A stretch of DNA of 36,966 nucleotides from Deltaproteobacteria bacterium HGW-Deltaproteobacteria-13 (GTDB lineage Bacteria > Desulfobacterota > Syntrophia > Syntrophales > Smithellaceae): positions 1 through 36,966 of the forward strand of contig PHBJ01000021.1 of the NCBI GenBank assembly GCA_002840555.1, written 5' to 3'. The notes below the pieces were generated by a model, which did not search any database, was not told the DNA's origin, and was given only the letters and a program-made list of their open reading frames with translations. This document shows positions 5,498 through 16,868 of the stretch, piece by piece. Position 1 is the stretch's first letter. Each line of letters starts with the position of its first letter. The translations under genes and the position numbers were made by a program.

Positions 5498-5713
5498 AAC
5501 AAGCGGTCCATATTATATAAAAGGAATGCGGGCGCTTGAAAAACTCCATCTTATTCGCTGCGTAATTCAATAATCCCCGGATTTTAAGTCTATTCTGAAT
5601 CCAAATCCTGCCGAAGAAATGGATTACAAACCTGTTGACAAAATTGATTGAGAATTATATTTACTATTGTATAAGTATAGAAACATCTAAATTAAACCGA
5701 AAGGTCGAATACT

Positions 5714-6046
5714 ATGCCGGAAAAAGCAAGCAAGAAGAACCGCGATAAAAATATGGAGCGTATGTCTGCCGCGTTTAAGGCTTTATCCAATGAAACCCGT
5801 TTGGCTGTTTTTGAAAATATCAGGCTTTGCCGGGCGCAGGCAATGCTCAATAAAGATAACCAGCCTTCCGTATGTAATGTTGCCAGTAATATTAATATTT
5901 CTCTTCCCACGATTTCTCATCACATCAAGGAACTTCGTAATGCCGGACTTGTCAGATGCGAAAGAAGGGGCCAGACAATTCTTTGAATGCCTGTAGATGA
6001 AACCATCAGGATGATGGTTGAATATCTCAACAAAGTTATAAAATAA
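5714..6046 (+). CDS. ArsR-family regulator with in-frame UGA (possible selenoprotein or truncated)
   Basis: Residues 1-90 form an ArsR/SmtB winged helix: FKALSNETRLAVFENI (about 21-36), the recognition helix in NISLPTISHHIKELRNAGLV and the wing CERRGQTIL. TGA then occurs at 5984-5986, but the frame stays open for 19 more codons to TAA at 6044-6046. That tail (VDETIRMMVEYLNKVIK) looks like the C-terminal dimerisation helix the 90-residue form would lack. Relatives often have Cys, Tyr or similar at this position. A perfect 7-bp hairpin with a 5-base loop (6001-6019) begins 14 bases after the UGA. So the full product could be 110 residues with Sec91, or the gene may simply be shortened or mutated. 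Cysteines at LCRAQ and SVCNVA could bind metal. It lies upstream of the Cys-rich operon. Confidence 0.7.
5984..6019 (+). promoter_or_regulatory. Candidate SECIS-like hairpin after UGA in the ArsR gene
   Basis: After TGA (5984-5986) come 14 bases, then AACCATC-AGGAT-GATGGTT (6001-6019), a perfect 7-bp stem with a 5-base loop. The fdhA SECIS in this window has the same 7+5+7 geometry, 11 bases after its UGA. The loop differs (AGGAU against GGUCU), so recognition by SelB is uncertain. Confidence 0.35.
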
Positions 6047-6168: not shown

Positions 6169-6229
6169 TTGACAAAGGCATGAGCAATATTATATTTAGA
6201 TATATATCGAAATATAGATATATCTAAAT
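6169..6229 (+). promoter_or_regulatory. Promoter with 12-bp inverted-repeat operator (ArsR target)
   Basis: TTGACA at 6169-6174 and TATATT at 6191-6196 are 16 bases apart. Overlapping the -10 is a perfect 12-bp inverted repeat, ATTTAGATATAT (6194-6205) and ATATATCTAAAT (6218-6229), with a 12-base spacer. An AT-rich imperfect dyad of this size overlapping the start region is typical of ArsR-family operators, and the ArsR gene lies immediately upstream. Confidence 0.75.
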
Positions 6230-6250: not shown

Positions 6251-6499
6251 ATGTCAACACAGGAAGAAGCCGGCAGGAAAAAGGGGGTTGAGTTCTGTCA
6301 GTCCTTTATGAACCAATGCTGCAATCCCGGATCGGCGGAGGAAAAGGGGCAGAAGCCTGATTTTAAAGGCTGTGAACAAATGATGAAACAGTTCTGCGGA
6401 ACAAAAGACGGGAAATTTGATTTTGAAGCATGCATGTCGAAGATGGCACAATGCTGTAAAGGAATGGATGAAAAATCAAACGAAAAAGTAAATAATTAA
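6251..6499 (+). CDS. Cys-rich small protein with internal repeat
   Basis: An 82-residue soluble protein with eight cysteines: 16, 23, 24, 41, 49, 61, 68 and 69. Two segments repeat the pattern F-x-x-C-x6-CC (around 15-24 and 58-69), with GC-x7-C between. There is no signal peptide, so it is probably cytoplasmic. The pattern suggests metal or Fe-S binding, but I recognise no characterised family. I chose the ATG at 6251 because AAAAAGGAGGAGG precedes it; an upstream ATG at 6230 lies inside that ribosome binding site. It is the first gene of the ArsR-controlled operon, and 36 bases separate it from the next gene. Confidence 0.75.
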   Translation: MSTQEEAGRKKGVEFCQSFMNQCCNPGSAEEKGQKPDFKGCEQMMKQFCGTKDGKFDFEACMSKMAQCCKGMDEKSNEKVNN

Positions 6500-6535: not shown

Positions 6536-6778
6536 ATGATGGGAGAAAATAATTCAAGTGAGGCAATTAGAAAAAGATCTCACTGTTTTGGGATGTGTGG
6601 TGCGCCGGGCAACCGCGTCTTCTGTGGATTATTCTTTATTATCGTCGGGCTTTTCTGGATCGGAAAGGAAGCGCGCTGGTTTTCACCTGAAATAATGACG
6701 CTTTTCTGGCCGTTGGTGCTCGTTCTGGCCGGCACCTGGCTGGTTGCGGCGGCCCTGATTAATAAAGCGCATCGTTAA
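6536..6778 (+). CDS. Small two-helix membrane protein
   Basis: An 80-residue protein with a short hydrophilic N-terminus containing two cysteines (HCFGMCG), then two transmembrane segments at about 30-44 (FCGLFFIIVGLFWIG) and 54-74 (TLFWPLVLVLAGTWLVAAAL). The arrangement resembles LiaI/LiaF-type or DUF5668-like small membrane proteins, though the match is only structural. It is probably an inner-membrane partner of the other small proteins in this operon. A poor ribosome binding site (AGGAG about nine bases before ATG) is present. The function is unknown. Confidence 0.65.
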   Translation: MMGENNSSEAIRKRSHCFGMCGAPGNRVFCGLFFIIVGLFWIGKEARWFSPEIMTLFWPLVLVLAGTWLVAAALINKAHR

Positions 6779-6918: not shown

Positions 6919-7092
6919 ATGGGAGAAAGTAAATGTTCCAACTGCAGCATGAAATCGCGTTATGATAAAAACCCGAATTCCATAATCAGCAAAATCTGGA
7001 AATGGCATTTAACCTGGTGTCCGGGATGGAAGTCGTATCTCAAGTCTCTGCCTGAGAATGAAAAAAATGAAATGATTAAAAAATACAGCTAA
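6919..7092 (+). CDS. Small CxxC protein (57 residues)
   Basis: A short gene with GGGAGG seven bases before the ATG. The 57-residue product begins MGESKCSNCSMKSRYD, has an aromatic centre (KIWKWHLTWCPGWKSYL) and ends with a charged helix. The CxxC pair at positions 6 and 9 and the WCPGWKSYLKSLP motif look like a conserved small-protein family, possibly a metal- or Fe-S-binding factor. It lies 22 bases before the methyltransferase-like gene and 140 bases after the small membrane protein. Codon use and the ribosome binding site support real translation; the function is unknown. Confidence 0.7.
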   Translation: MGESKCSNCSMKSRYDKNPNSIISKIWKWHLTWCPGWKSYLKSLPENEKNEMIKKYS

Positions 7093-7114: not shown

Positions 7115-7888
7115 ATGAGCGTTCTTATTAATACCTTCAATCGTGATTTAATCAGGAATCATACTAAAATTGTTATCATCATCTGGATTCTTAAGATACT
7201 TGGGCCGGTATCGGGAATCATGTTTACGCTCTTTCTTTTTTGGGGCTCCTTTACTCTGATTGATCTTGGCCTTAGCTCTGTAGATGGATTGCTGATAGAC
7301 ATCTTTTTATCGATGATGTTCTTCCTGCAACACAGTATAATGGTGCGCAGAGGATTCAAGCAATGGCTTGGGAAATACATGCCGGATATATATCATAGTG
7401 CGTTCTATGGAATAACCTCAGCCATTGCCTTACTGCTGGTCATGGCTTTCTGGCAGAAATCCGCCACTCTCGTAGCGAATGCCGACGGTATTATTTTCTG
7501 GATTCTTCGCGCTCTATTTTTTCTTTGTCTGGCTGGATTTTTCTGGGGGTCGAAAGCGCTTGGTTCATTCGACGCTCTTGGCGTCAAGCCGCTCATGCGT
7601 TATATCAGCAACAGGCAGAGTAAACCGCAGCAGATCGTGGCAAAGGGACCCTATCGATGGTCGCGTCATCCACTGTATCTGTTTGTGATCATTTTAATCT
7701 GGTCGTGTCCGGTGCTTACACTCGACAGGCTGATATTCAATATGATGTGGACGATATGGATTATTGTCGGTACATTTCTGGAGGATCGGGATCTTCACCG
7801 TGAATTCGGAAGCCAATACCGTGAATACAGCTCCAGGGTGCCGATGCTGATTCCTTATCGGATTCCTAAAAATAAGTCTGTTCGATAA
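7115..7888 (+). CDS. Isoprenylcysteine carboxyl methyltransferase-like membrane enzyme
   Basis: A 257-residue inner-membrane protein with about five or six hydrophobic segments. The C-terminal half has the ICMT/PEMT signature GPYRWSRHPLYLFV (about 178-191), followed by a membrane helix pair and EDRDLHREFGSQYREYSSRVP, the usual SAM-binding end of the family. Bacterial members methylate lipids or small isoprenoid or sulfur compounds; the substrate cannot be deduced here. It ends the ArsR-controlled operon after the Cys-rich, small-membrane and CxxC genes. Given that context, thiol or metal(loid) methylation is conceivable but speculative. Confidence 0.8.
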   Translation: MSVLINTFNRDLIRNHTKIVIIIWILKILGPVSGIMFTLFLFWGSFTLIDLGLSSVDGLLIDIFLSMMFFLQHSIMVRRGFKQWLGKYMPDIYHSAFYGITSAIALLLVMAFWQKSATLVANADGIIFWILRALFFLCLAGFFWGSKALGSFDALGVKPLMRYISNRQSKPQQIVAKGPYRWSRHPLYLFVIILIWSCPVLTLDRLIFNMMWTIWIIVGTFLEDRDLHREFGSQYREYSSRVPMLIPYRIPKNKSVR

Positions 7889-14091: not shown

Positions 14092-16788
14092 TTACGCGGC
14101 TTCCACTTTCACCGCGCAGACTTTGTATTCCGGAATTTTTCCGATCGGGTCCAGAGCCGGATTGGTGAGCAGGTTCACGGATGCGTCCGCAAAATGGAAG
14201 TTCATGAAAATCGAGCCCGGAGCGCTCTTTTTGGTAATGGTGGCTTTGGCTTCCACCGTGCCGCGCCGGGAAGTGACCTTGACTTTCTGGCCTTCGGATA
14301 CTTTCAATTTATCGGCATCTGCCGGATTGATTTCCACGAGGCTTTCAGGACAGCGTTCGTTAAGACCTTCCGCGCGTGTGGTCATGGTGCCGGTGTGGTA
14401 ATGATACAGGACGCGTCCGGTGGAAAGCAGGAACGGATATTGTTTGTCCGGCAATTCATTGGGCGCGATGTATTCAATGGCGGTGAATAATCCCAGACCG
14501 CGGGAGAATTTATCCTTGTGCAGGAACTTGGTTCCCTGATGTTCCGCTGTGGGGCAGGGCCACTGAATGCCGCCTTTTTCCAGACGCTCGTAAGAGATTC
14601 CCGCGTAGCTGGGTGTGACTTTCGCCACTTCTTCAAATATCTCTTTGGCGGAAGCATATTTCATCGCGTAACCCATCTTGTTGGAGATACCGCAGATGAC
14701 TTCCCAGTCGGCTTTGGCTGCACCCGGAGCGTCAACTGCCTTGCGCACGCGCTGTACGCGGCGTTCGGTATTAGAAAACGTTCCATCCTTTTCGGCAAAG
14801 CTGGCCACCGGCAGAACGACGTCGGCCAACTGAGCTGTTTCCGTCATAAATAAATCCTGGACAATCATCAAATCCAGTTTCTTAAGTTCTTCCTTAACAT
14901 GATGTAAATCAGGATCGGAAAGCATGGGATTTTCGCCCATGATGTAAAGCGCTTTAATCGTACCCTTACCGGCCGCGTCCATCATCTCCATGATGGTCAA
15001 TCCCGGTTTGGGAGAAAGCTTGGCGTTCCAAGCCGCTTCAAATTTCTTGCGGGCATCCTCGTTGGCCACCTGCTGGTAGGCCGGATAAACATTGGGCAGG
15101 CCGCCCATGTCGCAGGCGCCCTGAACATTATTCTGGCCGCGCAACGGATTCACGCCGCCGCCCTCAATGCCGACATTGCCGCAAAGCATGGAAAGATTGG
15201 CCATGCTCTTAACGTTGTCCGTGCCGCTGATGTGCTGGGTAATGCCCATGGCGTAAAGAATGCTGGCCCTTTCGGCCTGCGCATACATTCTGGCGGCTTT
15301 CTTCAAATCTTCCGCGGGCACGCCGGAAATCTTTTCGACATATACCGGTGTGTATTTTTCAACGGCTTTCTTTAAAGCGTCGAATCCTTCGGTTCTGTCT
15401 TTCACATATTCTTTGGCATAAAGACCTTCGGCAATGATGACATTCAGTAAACCGTTGATAACGGCGACATCAGTTCCCGGATTCTGCCTCAGCCAGATAT
15501 CGGCATATTTGACCAGATCGATTTCACGCGGATCGATCACGATCAGCTTCGTTCCTTTTTTAACCGCCCTTTTTACTTTCATCCCGATGATCGGATGATT
15601 CTCAGTGGTGTTGGTGCCTGTTGCCAGAATCAAATCCGTGAATTCAATTTCATCAATAGAATTAGTCATTGCACCGCTGCCGAATGTGGCGGCCAGACCG
15701 GCCACCGTTACGGAGTGTCAGAGTCGGGCACAGTGATCGACATTGTTGGTGCCGATTGCCGCCCGCATGAATTTCTGGAACAGATAATTTTCTTCATTGG
15801 TACAGCGTGCTGAGGACAGACCGGCAATACAGTCGGCGCCGTTTTCTTTTTTAATTTTGGAAAGCTTGTCGGCAATAAACTTAAAGGCCTCATCCCAGCT
15901 CGCTTCCTTGAAGTCTTCGTTTTTCTTGTAGCGGATCATGGGAGTTTTCAGACGATCGGGATGCGCTACGAAATCCATGCCGAAACGTCCTTTGACGCAA
16001 AGGCTTCCCTGATTTGGCGAGCCGTATTCGCGATTGCCCATGACCTTGACGATTTTATTATCCTTGGTGTAGAGATCCATCTGACAGCCGACGCCGCAAT
16101 AGGTGCAGGTGGTACGGACTTTATTCAATTCCCAGGGACGGCCGCCAAATTTCGCCTGCTTGAAAGTGATGGCGCCAGTGGGACAGACCTGCAGGCATTC
16201 GCCGCAAAATACGCAGGACGAGTTGATATAGTCGTCATCGAATGCCGGCCCGACTTTTGCCTTTGAACTACGACTGGCAAAATCCAGCACTTCGTTGACC
16301 TGTATTTCGTTGCAGGCGCGAACACAGCGTCCGCAAAGGATGCATTTGTTCAGATCGCGCATAATCATGGTATTGCTGTTGTCCAGCGCGTAACCGGGAG
16401 CTTTGATTTCAAAGCGGGGCTGATCAATCTTCAACCAGTAAACCAGATTCTGTAATTCGCACTGGCCGTTTTGTTCGCAGGAAAGACAGTTATGATCGCC
16501 GGACGACCACAACAGTTCAATGATCATTTTCTGAGCGTTTCGCACTGCCTTGGTTGCGGTGCGAATAACCATATTCGGAGTCACGGGCATACAGCAGGCC
16601 GCGACGAGAGATCGGGCGTTTTCCACTTCCACGACGCATACACGGCAGGCGCCGACGTTGGTCGTTTTCTGATAATGGCAAAGGGTGGGAATAAAAATGC
16701 CGTTATCGCGGGCTAATTCTAAAATAGTCTGTCCCGGATCGGCCGAGACCTCTTTTCCATCAAGGGTAACTTTAATCTTATTTTCCAT
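14092..16788 (-). CDS. fdhA: Formate dehydrogenase alpha subunit, selenocysteine-containing
   Basis: One 898-residue gene read through an in-frame UGA at 15720-15718 (Sec357). The context CARL-U-HS with TVAGLA is the conserved FDH active site. The N-terminus has a 2Fe-2S ferredoxin-type domain (Cys37, 48, 51, 65), a His-ligated cluster region (DHNCLSCEQNGQC), two 4Fe-4S motifs (CILCGRCVRAC and CVFCGECLQVC), then the Fe-S motif CTYCGVGC and the molybdopterin domains to a NuoG-like C-terminus. It oxidises formate or reduces CO2, passing electrons to a partner that is not in this window. GGAGA before the ATG at 16788 favours this start over the TTG at 16806. No signal peptide, so cytoplasmic. 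The promoter is at 16869-16897. An ORF finder splits the gene in two. Confidence 0.95.
15688..15720 (-). promoter_or_regulatory. SECIS element for formate dehydrogenase
   Basis: Minus strand: UGA (15720-15718), 11 bases, then GGTGGCC-GGTCT-GGCCGCC (15706-15688). The 7-bp stem has one G-U pair and the GGUCU apical loop. Distance and loop match the Escherichia coli fdhF SECIS as I recall it, so SelB-dependent Sec insertion is expected. Confidence 0.9.
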
Positions 16789-16868
16789 TATTTTCTCCAT
16801 CTGCAAGGATTAATATTTATTCTCTTAAGTTAAAATCGGCGAGAGATGTATTTTTAATAAACAGAGAA

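Follow-up and report, generated by a model that had tools for sequence, protein, structure and literature searches.

The window, by which we mean the whole stretch of 36,966 nucleotides analysed here, spans positions 1 to 36,966 of contig PHBJ01000021.1 (assembly GCA_002840555.1) from Deltaproteobacteria bacterium HGW-Deltaproteobacteria-13. It carries a gene for an ArsR-family regulator with an in-frame UGA codon, followed by a hairpin, two probable promoters, a candidate operator and four further genes on the same strand. The features are listed below.

5635..5661, plus strand: probable promoter of the regulator gene, read from the sequence (TTGACA 5635-5640, TATATT 5656-5661)
5714..6046, plus strand: the regulator gene, here called Sec-ArsR, 110 residues with the proposed selenocysteine (Sec) at codon 91 (ATG 5714, TAA 6044-6046)
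5984..5986, plus strand: UGA codon 91, proposed selenocysteine on the basis of UGA in 14 genomes and Cys in relatives
6001..6019, plus strand: SECIS-like apical hairpin, loop AGGAU at 6008-6012 with a conserved G at 6009, model rules met
6169..6196, plus strand: probable promoter of the downstream operon, read from the sequence (TTGACA 6169-6174, TATATT 6191-6196)
6191..6216, plus strand: palindromic operator candidate, TATATTTAGATA-ta-TATCGAAATATA, covering the -10 box, 11 of 12 pairs, no binding data
6251..6499, plus strand: Cys-rich protein of 82 residues (ATG 6251), same cluster in 10 of 16 loci
6536..6778, plus strand: small LiaI-like membrane protein (PF18917, 30.9 bits, cut-off 27), cluster in 14 of 16 loci
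6919..7092, plus strand: Cys-containing protein of 57 residues, also in L049, L050 and L051
7115..7888, plus strand: MddA-like or ICMT-like membrane methyltransferase (NCBIfam MddA, 132.5 bits), cluster in 7 of 16 loci

Past the in-frame TGA at 5984-5986, the regulator frame continues for 19 sense codons to the TAA at 6044-6046, and this TGA is the only one in the open frame. An earlier sequence-only reading had described a frame open for 19 codons beyond the UGA, and its coordinates and frame agree with the sequence. The gene product matched the Pfam family HTH_5 at 32 bits (cut-off 22) as well as HTH_20, and it passed the NCBIfam HTH_metalloreg profile with 60.4 bits (cut-off 55). AlphaFold2 predicted a winged helix with a mean pLDDT of 80.5, including strands at residues 80-85 and 88-93 and a C-terminal helix at residues 95-109. 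The C-terminal helix serves as the dimer helix in the ArsR family. The model places such a helix in the tail after the UGA, in agreement with the earlier proposal that this tail supplies the missing dimerisation helix. The best PDB structure matches were ArsR-family proteins, namely CzrA, HlyU, CadC and an As(III)-responsive ArsR, and the sequence matches agree. The structural matches also include the thiol-based SqrR, BigR and HlyU. The UGA, the frame and the hairpin in an ArsR-family gene are confirmed.

The UGA is widely retained. It stands at codon 91, followed by a conserved tail, in 14 distinct genomes including the window's own, and two close relatives carry TGT at this codon with the tail intact. 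Both outcomes, UGA kept as UGA and TGT or TGC with an intact tail, had been named beforehand as support for selenocysteine. Within a set of 60 genomes (own included), six further close orthologues were found, of which five have TGA at codon 91 and that of G002 has none. At the family level (51 genomes), ten genomes carry an orthologue, eight with TGA and two with TGT (G002 and G063); at the order level (155 genomes), 14 carry one, 12 with TGA and two with Cys. An even draw of 395 genomes from the phylum yielded 14 matches at 1e-18, three of them with TGA at this codon (G000, G007 and the newly found G507). Public species genomes yielded 147 relatives. The best 80 of these 147 have TGC (43), TGT (22), TGA (12) or another codon (3) at the aligned position, giving Cys in 65 of the 80. 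The full aligned-codon comparison covers 96 loci, 80 of them from this set, and some genomes are present twice. The UGA genomes are G000, G007, G010, G014, G015, G022, G064 and G074, together with six that also bear locus numbers (G089/L075, G090/L076, G104/L077, G094/L078, G507/L079 and G534/L080). G534 is a MAG labelled Spirochaetes; the remaining named UGA-form records carry the labels Syntrophaceae, Smithella or Deltaproteobacteria. Of 316 candidate stretches in the viral contigs searched, none was confirmed, and a plasmid search returned 135 records, every one below 60% identity. The gene appears to encode an ArsR-family regulator with selenocysteine where relatives have cysteine.

A separate observation concerns L160 (G455:C11:114011-114322), a Cys-form ArsR relative with an in-frame TGA at a different Cys column. 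This column corresponds to the Cys of a CPPGTxC motif in relatives, and the genome has selB. L160 may hold a second Sec site, although the fold downstream of its TGA is unconvincing.

Both selB and tRNA-Sec are present in the window's genome. They scored over the cut-off in all of the first eight genomes tested, which comprised six UGA genomes (own included), the Cys-form genome G002 and the orthologue-less G023. Overall, the two genes were found together in 11 of the 14 UGA genomes. With the thresholds used (selB at 1e-80; tRNA-Sec at 1e-9 with 150 candidates scored per genome), G507 gave selB and no tRNA-Sec, G534 gave tRNA-Sec and no selB, and G064 (83% complete) gave neither. In G074, a tRNA-Sec gene (G074:C162:4583-4676) lies about 1 kb from Sec-ArsR (beside L059/L071), on the opposite strand of the same contig. 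General or stop-codon readthrough, in which UGA is decoded without selenium as another amino acid such as Trp, would equally keep the frame open with TGA taken as sense, but it has next to no standing: the regulator gene itself terminates with TGA in three of the 14 UGA forms (L051, L076 and L080), so UGA is not generally reassigned, the organism has its own selB and tRNA-Sec, and the aligned residue of relatives is Cys rather than Trp.

The hairpin after the UGA has the form that had been claimed for it, a perfect 7-bp Watson-Crick stem with a 5-nt loop starting 14 bases after the UGA. The bacterial SECIS model, as given in the available part of PMC13188914, specifies a loop of 3-9 nt, a stem of 4-16 bp, a G in the first two loop bases, a spacing of 16-37 nt and an MFE of at most -7.5. 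The ArsR hairpin conforms to this model in stem, loop, G position and spacing. Such a hairpin can form in all 14 UGA forms at a distance of 20-22 nt from the UGA. The MFE of the 60 bases from the UGA ranges from -9.1 to -22.1 across them. The MFE fold of these 60 bases is different from the SECIS-like hairpin in L075 and L080. In L059 and L060, the isolated hairpin gets no lower than -5.1 kcal/mol. The loop G (alignment column 26) is retained in 14 of 14 UGA forms. Its codon is AGG, GGG, GGT or AGT, and the encoded residue thus varies among Arg, Gly and Ser while the G stays. Both close Cys forms have A at this position, and of 77 Cys homologues, 6 have G at the aligned base. Of the two close Cys forms, L050 retains the stem and still passes a loose SECIS model; L064 has lost the stem.

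Covariation had been proposed as a further check on the hairpin, and here the outcome was divided. The six core stem pairs are almost invariant and show no two-sided change; only the flanking pair 18-36 shows two-sided changes. The earlier reading would have taken a lack of covariation as refutation. This outcome was nearly met, yet it is not counted as a refutation because the stem is also coding and almost invariant, with third codon bases that are unusually fixed. The Thr97 codon is ACC in all 14 UGA forms. Across 48 other conserved codons, the commonest third base has a mean frequency of 0.64 and only one codon of the 48 is fixed. The synonymous difference is also smaller in the tail (0.42) than in the head (0.69, codons 53-90 compared).

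In a shuffle test, 17 of 200 shuffled sequences folded as well as the ArsR hairpin or better (z -1.47). The window contains 1399 TGA triplets on both strands and in all frames, of which 10 are followed by a 7-bp Watson-Crick stem satisfying the loop-G rule, 42 by a 6-bp stem and 354 by a structure passing the loose SECIS model. Judged without the relatives, the hairpin stands out only moderately and does not decide the matter. On the evidence of the alignment, it is the conservation over 14 genomes that raises it above chance. An Rfam scan of the window gave nothing at the gathering score. The window also holds a formate dehydrogenase gene (14092-16806, minus strand, UGA 15718-15720; TIGR01591, 909 bits, cut-off 666). 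Its hairpin has the loop sequence GGUCU and lies 3-4 nt nearer to the UGA than that of the ArsR gene. This alpha subunit is an ordinary selenoprotein.

The tail after the UGA has a dN/dS of 0.35, indicating purifying selection that is weaker than in the head (0.07). This value bears on the reading of the UGA as a plain stop, with a protein that ends at residue 90 and downstream similarity that is a relic of a nonsense mutation or sequencing error. A 90-residue product would already contain the helix-turn-helix part, and chance matching of any single hairpin is expected to some degree. A relic does not account for a selected tail, for a fixed loop G, or for UGA in 14 genomes with a conserved tail and TGT in two, and we leave this reading only a very slight chance. 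The occurrence of UGA at the same codon in 14 genomes makes it very unlikely that the gene is simply truncated or that the UGA arose by a sequencing error or by a point mutation private to this genome. Having passed its main comparative tests, the selenoprotein reading of the regulator is supported. Insertion of Sec at codon 91 is nevertheless argued from comparative genomics and not from chemistry, and there is no peptide or selenium evidence for it.

In a tree of 95 proteins, the 14 Sec and two Cys rows group together (97/94). Two changes are required for the Sec label on this tree, and the two Cys rows pair with each other (98/90). The topology therefore fits one putative gain of Sec from a Cys ancestor, then one return to Cys. 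With the root at the midpoint, the Sec clade falls into the same half of the tree as the Cys-form ArsR relatives. The tree rests on few columns, its bootstrap had not settled and its root is a midpoint. Same-genome duplicates, L082, L160 and L165 were left out, and internal-stop letters were removed in some Cys rows.

The likely target of the regulator lies directly downstream. A TTGAC box is present at the position of the downstream-operon promoter in 15 of 16 loci examined. The palindrome at 6191-6216 reached p ~0.016, the minimum attainable with 60 shuffles. The downstream promoter occurs in 15 loci; its palindrome matches in 10 or more of the 12 pairs at ten of these and in 9 pairs at the other five, with p <=0.05 in 8 of the 15. 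The promoter arrangement of the regulator gene is also found upstream of the regulator in close relatives. In the window, this promoter has no significant palindrome, with 8 of 12 pairs matching (p ~0.82). Since the palindrome at the regulator promoter is significant in only 2 of 16 loci, autoregulation is inferred as a weaker claim than downstream repression. Both are inferred from the operator position and the family. A search of the own genome with the operator returned the window site as the sole full match and two sites with 3 mismatches; the reversed control pattern gave one match. With one full match in the genome, the regulon there looks local.

The Cys-rich protein (6251-6499) has no Pfam family over the cut-off, and a family search with the 57-residue protein (6919-7092) gave none. 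The membrane methyltransferase (7115-7888) was considered as a true MddA; its 132.5 bits fall below the equivalog cut-off of 270, and it is related to MddA without that identity having been shown.

In the proposed model, SelB bound to the hairpin at 6001-6019 would bring Sec-tRNA to UGA91, and the end of the wing together with the C-terminal helix would be produced only where the cell has both selenium and the Sec machinery. If Sec is not inserted, translation would yield a protein of 90 residues without the C-terminal helix. The Sec-ArsR dimer would probably bind the palindrome at 6191-6216 over the -10 box, perhaps also its own promoter. Bound there, it would repress the small operon encoding the Cys-rich protein, the small membrane protein and the MddA-like methyltransferase.

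The gene neighbourhood provides hints about the inducer. Neighbour clusters were built by single linkage over 73 loci (L075-L147), and one representative per cluster was profiled. A cluster whose representative is an arsenite methyltransferase (351.8 bits, cut-off 263) lies near the regulator in 19 of the 73 loci, and an Acr3 cluster in 7 of the 73 (representative 392.5 bits, cut-off 282.8). A cluster whose representative is an EFR1-family ferredoxin also lies near the Cys-form ArsR in 17 of the 73 loci, among them L090, L103, L112, L113 and other Bacillota.

Mercury enters through L078, where the mercury-methylation genes hgcA (463.8 bits, cut-off 275) and hgcB (103.4 bits, cut-off 99) lie directly downstream of Sec-ArsR. 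L078 was the only locus with hgcA among the set of regulator loci compared. Across genomes, hgcA scored over the cut-off in 15 of 16 clade genomes. Within the order, it did so in 75 of 155 genomes, divided into 13 of 14 clade genomes and 62 of 141 others (Fisher p 0.0004). Within the genus, the counts were 6 of 6 clade genomes and 3 of 11 others (p 0.009). These co-occurrence tests ignore relatedness. An hgcA-like stretch under the cut-off, with an in-frame TGA, was also seen at G132:C56:20526-21065; HgcA with Sec is among the entries of the 2026 table of PMC13188914.

On this evidence, the main task of Sec-ArsR could be mercury sensing, with hgcAB or the handling of mercury under its control; the adjacency in L078 and the enrichment of hgcA in clade genomes are in favour. 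We regard this as rather unlikely, as the adjacency was seen once and the hgcA of the own genome is found on a separate contig, where a different regulator precedes it and no matching operator is present. At 14 hgcA loci inspected (seven clade genomes and seven others), the preceding gene encodes a conserved Cys-rich regulator and never the ArsR (L172, which is the own locus on G000:C21, L173, L174, L176-L180, L182, L187, L188, L196, L199 and L202). The best profile of the own copy was BilQ, at 41.8 bits under a cut-off of 125. We read this Cys-rich protein as MarR-like and as a candidate hgcAB regulator. The hgcAB link of Sec-ArsR is one adjacent case plus co-occurrence, and in the window's organism it is co-occurrence only because the gene before hgcA is this MarR-like regulator. 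The broader proposal, that Sec is the sensing residue for mercury or a very thiophilic metal(loid), mostly in bacteria with mercury-methylation genes and, in a single lineage, sited immediately ahead of hgcAB, is possible and remains doubtful.

Cys54, Cys82 and residue 91 show no variation across the 16 clade members (14 Sec and two Cys). Outside the Sec clade, Cys54 occurs in 1 of 82 loci and Cys82 in 4 of 82 (14 clade loci subtracted). Judging from the strand limits of the model and not from coordinates, Sec91, in the second strand of the wing, probably faces Cys82 in the first. Classical As(III)-type ArsR proteins carry a CxC motif in helix 3. Membership in this CxC type was considered and rejected; the window protein has S52-V53-C54, and CxC occurs only in L050 and L076 among the 16. 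Sec91 and Cys82, with the clade-invariant Cys54, would make up the sensing site. A thiophilic metal(loid), such as As(III), Hg(II) or an alkylated form, would react at Sec91 and Cys82 and cause release of the DNA; alternatively, an oxidant would form an Se-S bond at the same pair with the same effect.

The second of these routes is also a competing explanation. Here Sec-ArsR is accepted, and Sec91-Cys82 acts as a redox switch, sensing through a selenenylsulfide, a persulfide or peroxide, without any metal site. The likely cross-strand C82-U91 pair (predicted strands 80-85 and 88-93) suits such a switch, as does the presence of the thiol-based SqrR, BigR and HlyU among the structural matches. 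Arsenic genes often adjoin Cys relatives and hgcAB adjoins one Sec form, both of which speak against a purely redox role, and membership in BigR (NF040642) failed at 24 bits against an equivalog cut-off of 155. A pure redox switch is a tentative possibility to which we give less than an even chance. Metal(loid) and redox sensing remain undecided, and we favour the metal(loid). Our inference is that a thiophilic metal(loid) or an oxidant probably acts as the inducer by reacting with Sec91 and Cys82; its nature is the least certain step. The sensor role as a whole, including metal binding and derepression, is likewise an inference. With these steps combined, we hold with good confidence that the gene at 5714-6046 encodes a Sec-containing ArsR-family repressor of a small operon, with a metal(loid) or an oxidant as inducer.

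A Sec-bearing ArsR would be a case of selenium chemistry put to use in gene control. The protein is likely annotated as a truncated product of 90 residues, and with natural Sec and Cys versions it offers a testable sensor. A Sec sensor, if true, would link control of metal handling, and perhaps of methylmercury-related genes, to the selenium supply. How mercury methylation is controlled is an open question, to which the genomic link to hgcAB is relevant.

It is very likely that these proteins form a real selenoprotein family among the ArsR/SmtB regulators, and a new one as judged from the literature only. The 2026 review PMC13188914, so far as its text was available, covers 119 prokaryotic selenoprotein families and includes no ArsR and no other named DNA-binding repressor; the terms ArsR, HTH, DNA-binding and sensor have zero occurrences each in that text. 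ArsR is also absent from the accessible portions of the deep-Sep (PMC12013277), Sargasso Sea (PMC1088965) and ocean-sampling (PMC2398784) selenoprotein papers, and a literature search confined to open-licence papers listed no Sec-containing ArsR. The sole entry termed regulatory in the 119-family table, in the portion of PMC13188914 at hand, is FmdB. The FmdB-family putative regulatory selenoprotein, as far as PMC2398784 could be consulted, is an uncharacterised COG2331 protein with a CxxU motif and is not an ArsR. TsoR (NF045707) shares the ArsR family with the window protein, which was rejected as a member at 42.6 bits, far under the equivalog cut-off of 115. TsoR is named after the tso genes, and the available part of PMC13188914 lists TsoA, B, C, X and Y as selenoproteins, with TsoR absent.

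Three further known groups are comparable. ArsR-like proteins upstream of hgcAB in Pseudodesulfovibrio and others have been described, in the sections available of PMC7438021 and PMC10349881, as arsenic-responsive and controlling hgcAB. They belong to the same family and have the same placement as Sec-ArsR in L078; the present protein differs in having Sec for Cys, and most Sec forms are not beside hgcAB. The Cys-form ArsR proteins beside arsenite methyltransferase or Acr3 genes in Desulfobacterales, Chloroflexi and others share the domain and have Cys at the aligned codon, but they carry a different Cys set (often C39-C40 and C52), mostly without C54 or C82. Finally, the ArsR/SmtB structures (CzrA, HlyU, CadC, SmtB and ArsR 6j05) are alike in their winged helix, C-terminal dimer helix and size, whereas the window protein is distinguished by Sec at wing residue 91 and by the invariant set Cys54, Cys82 and Sec91.
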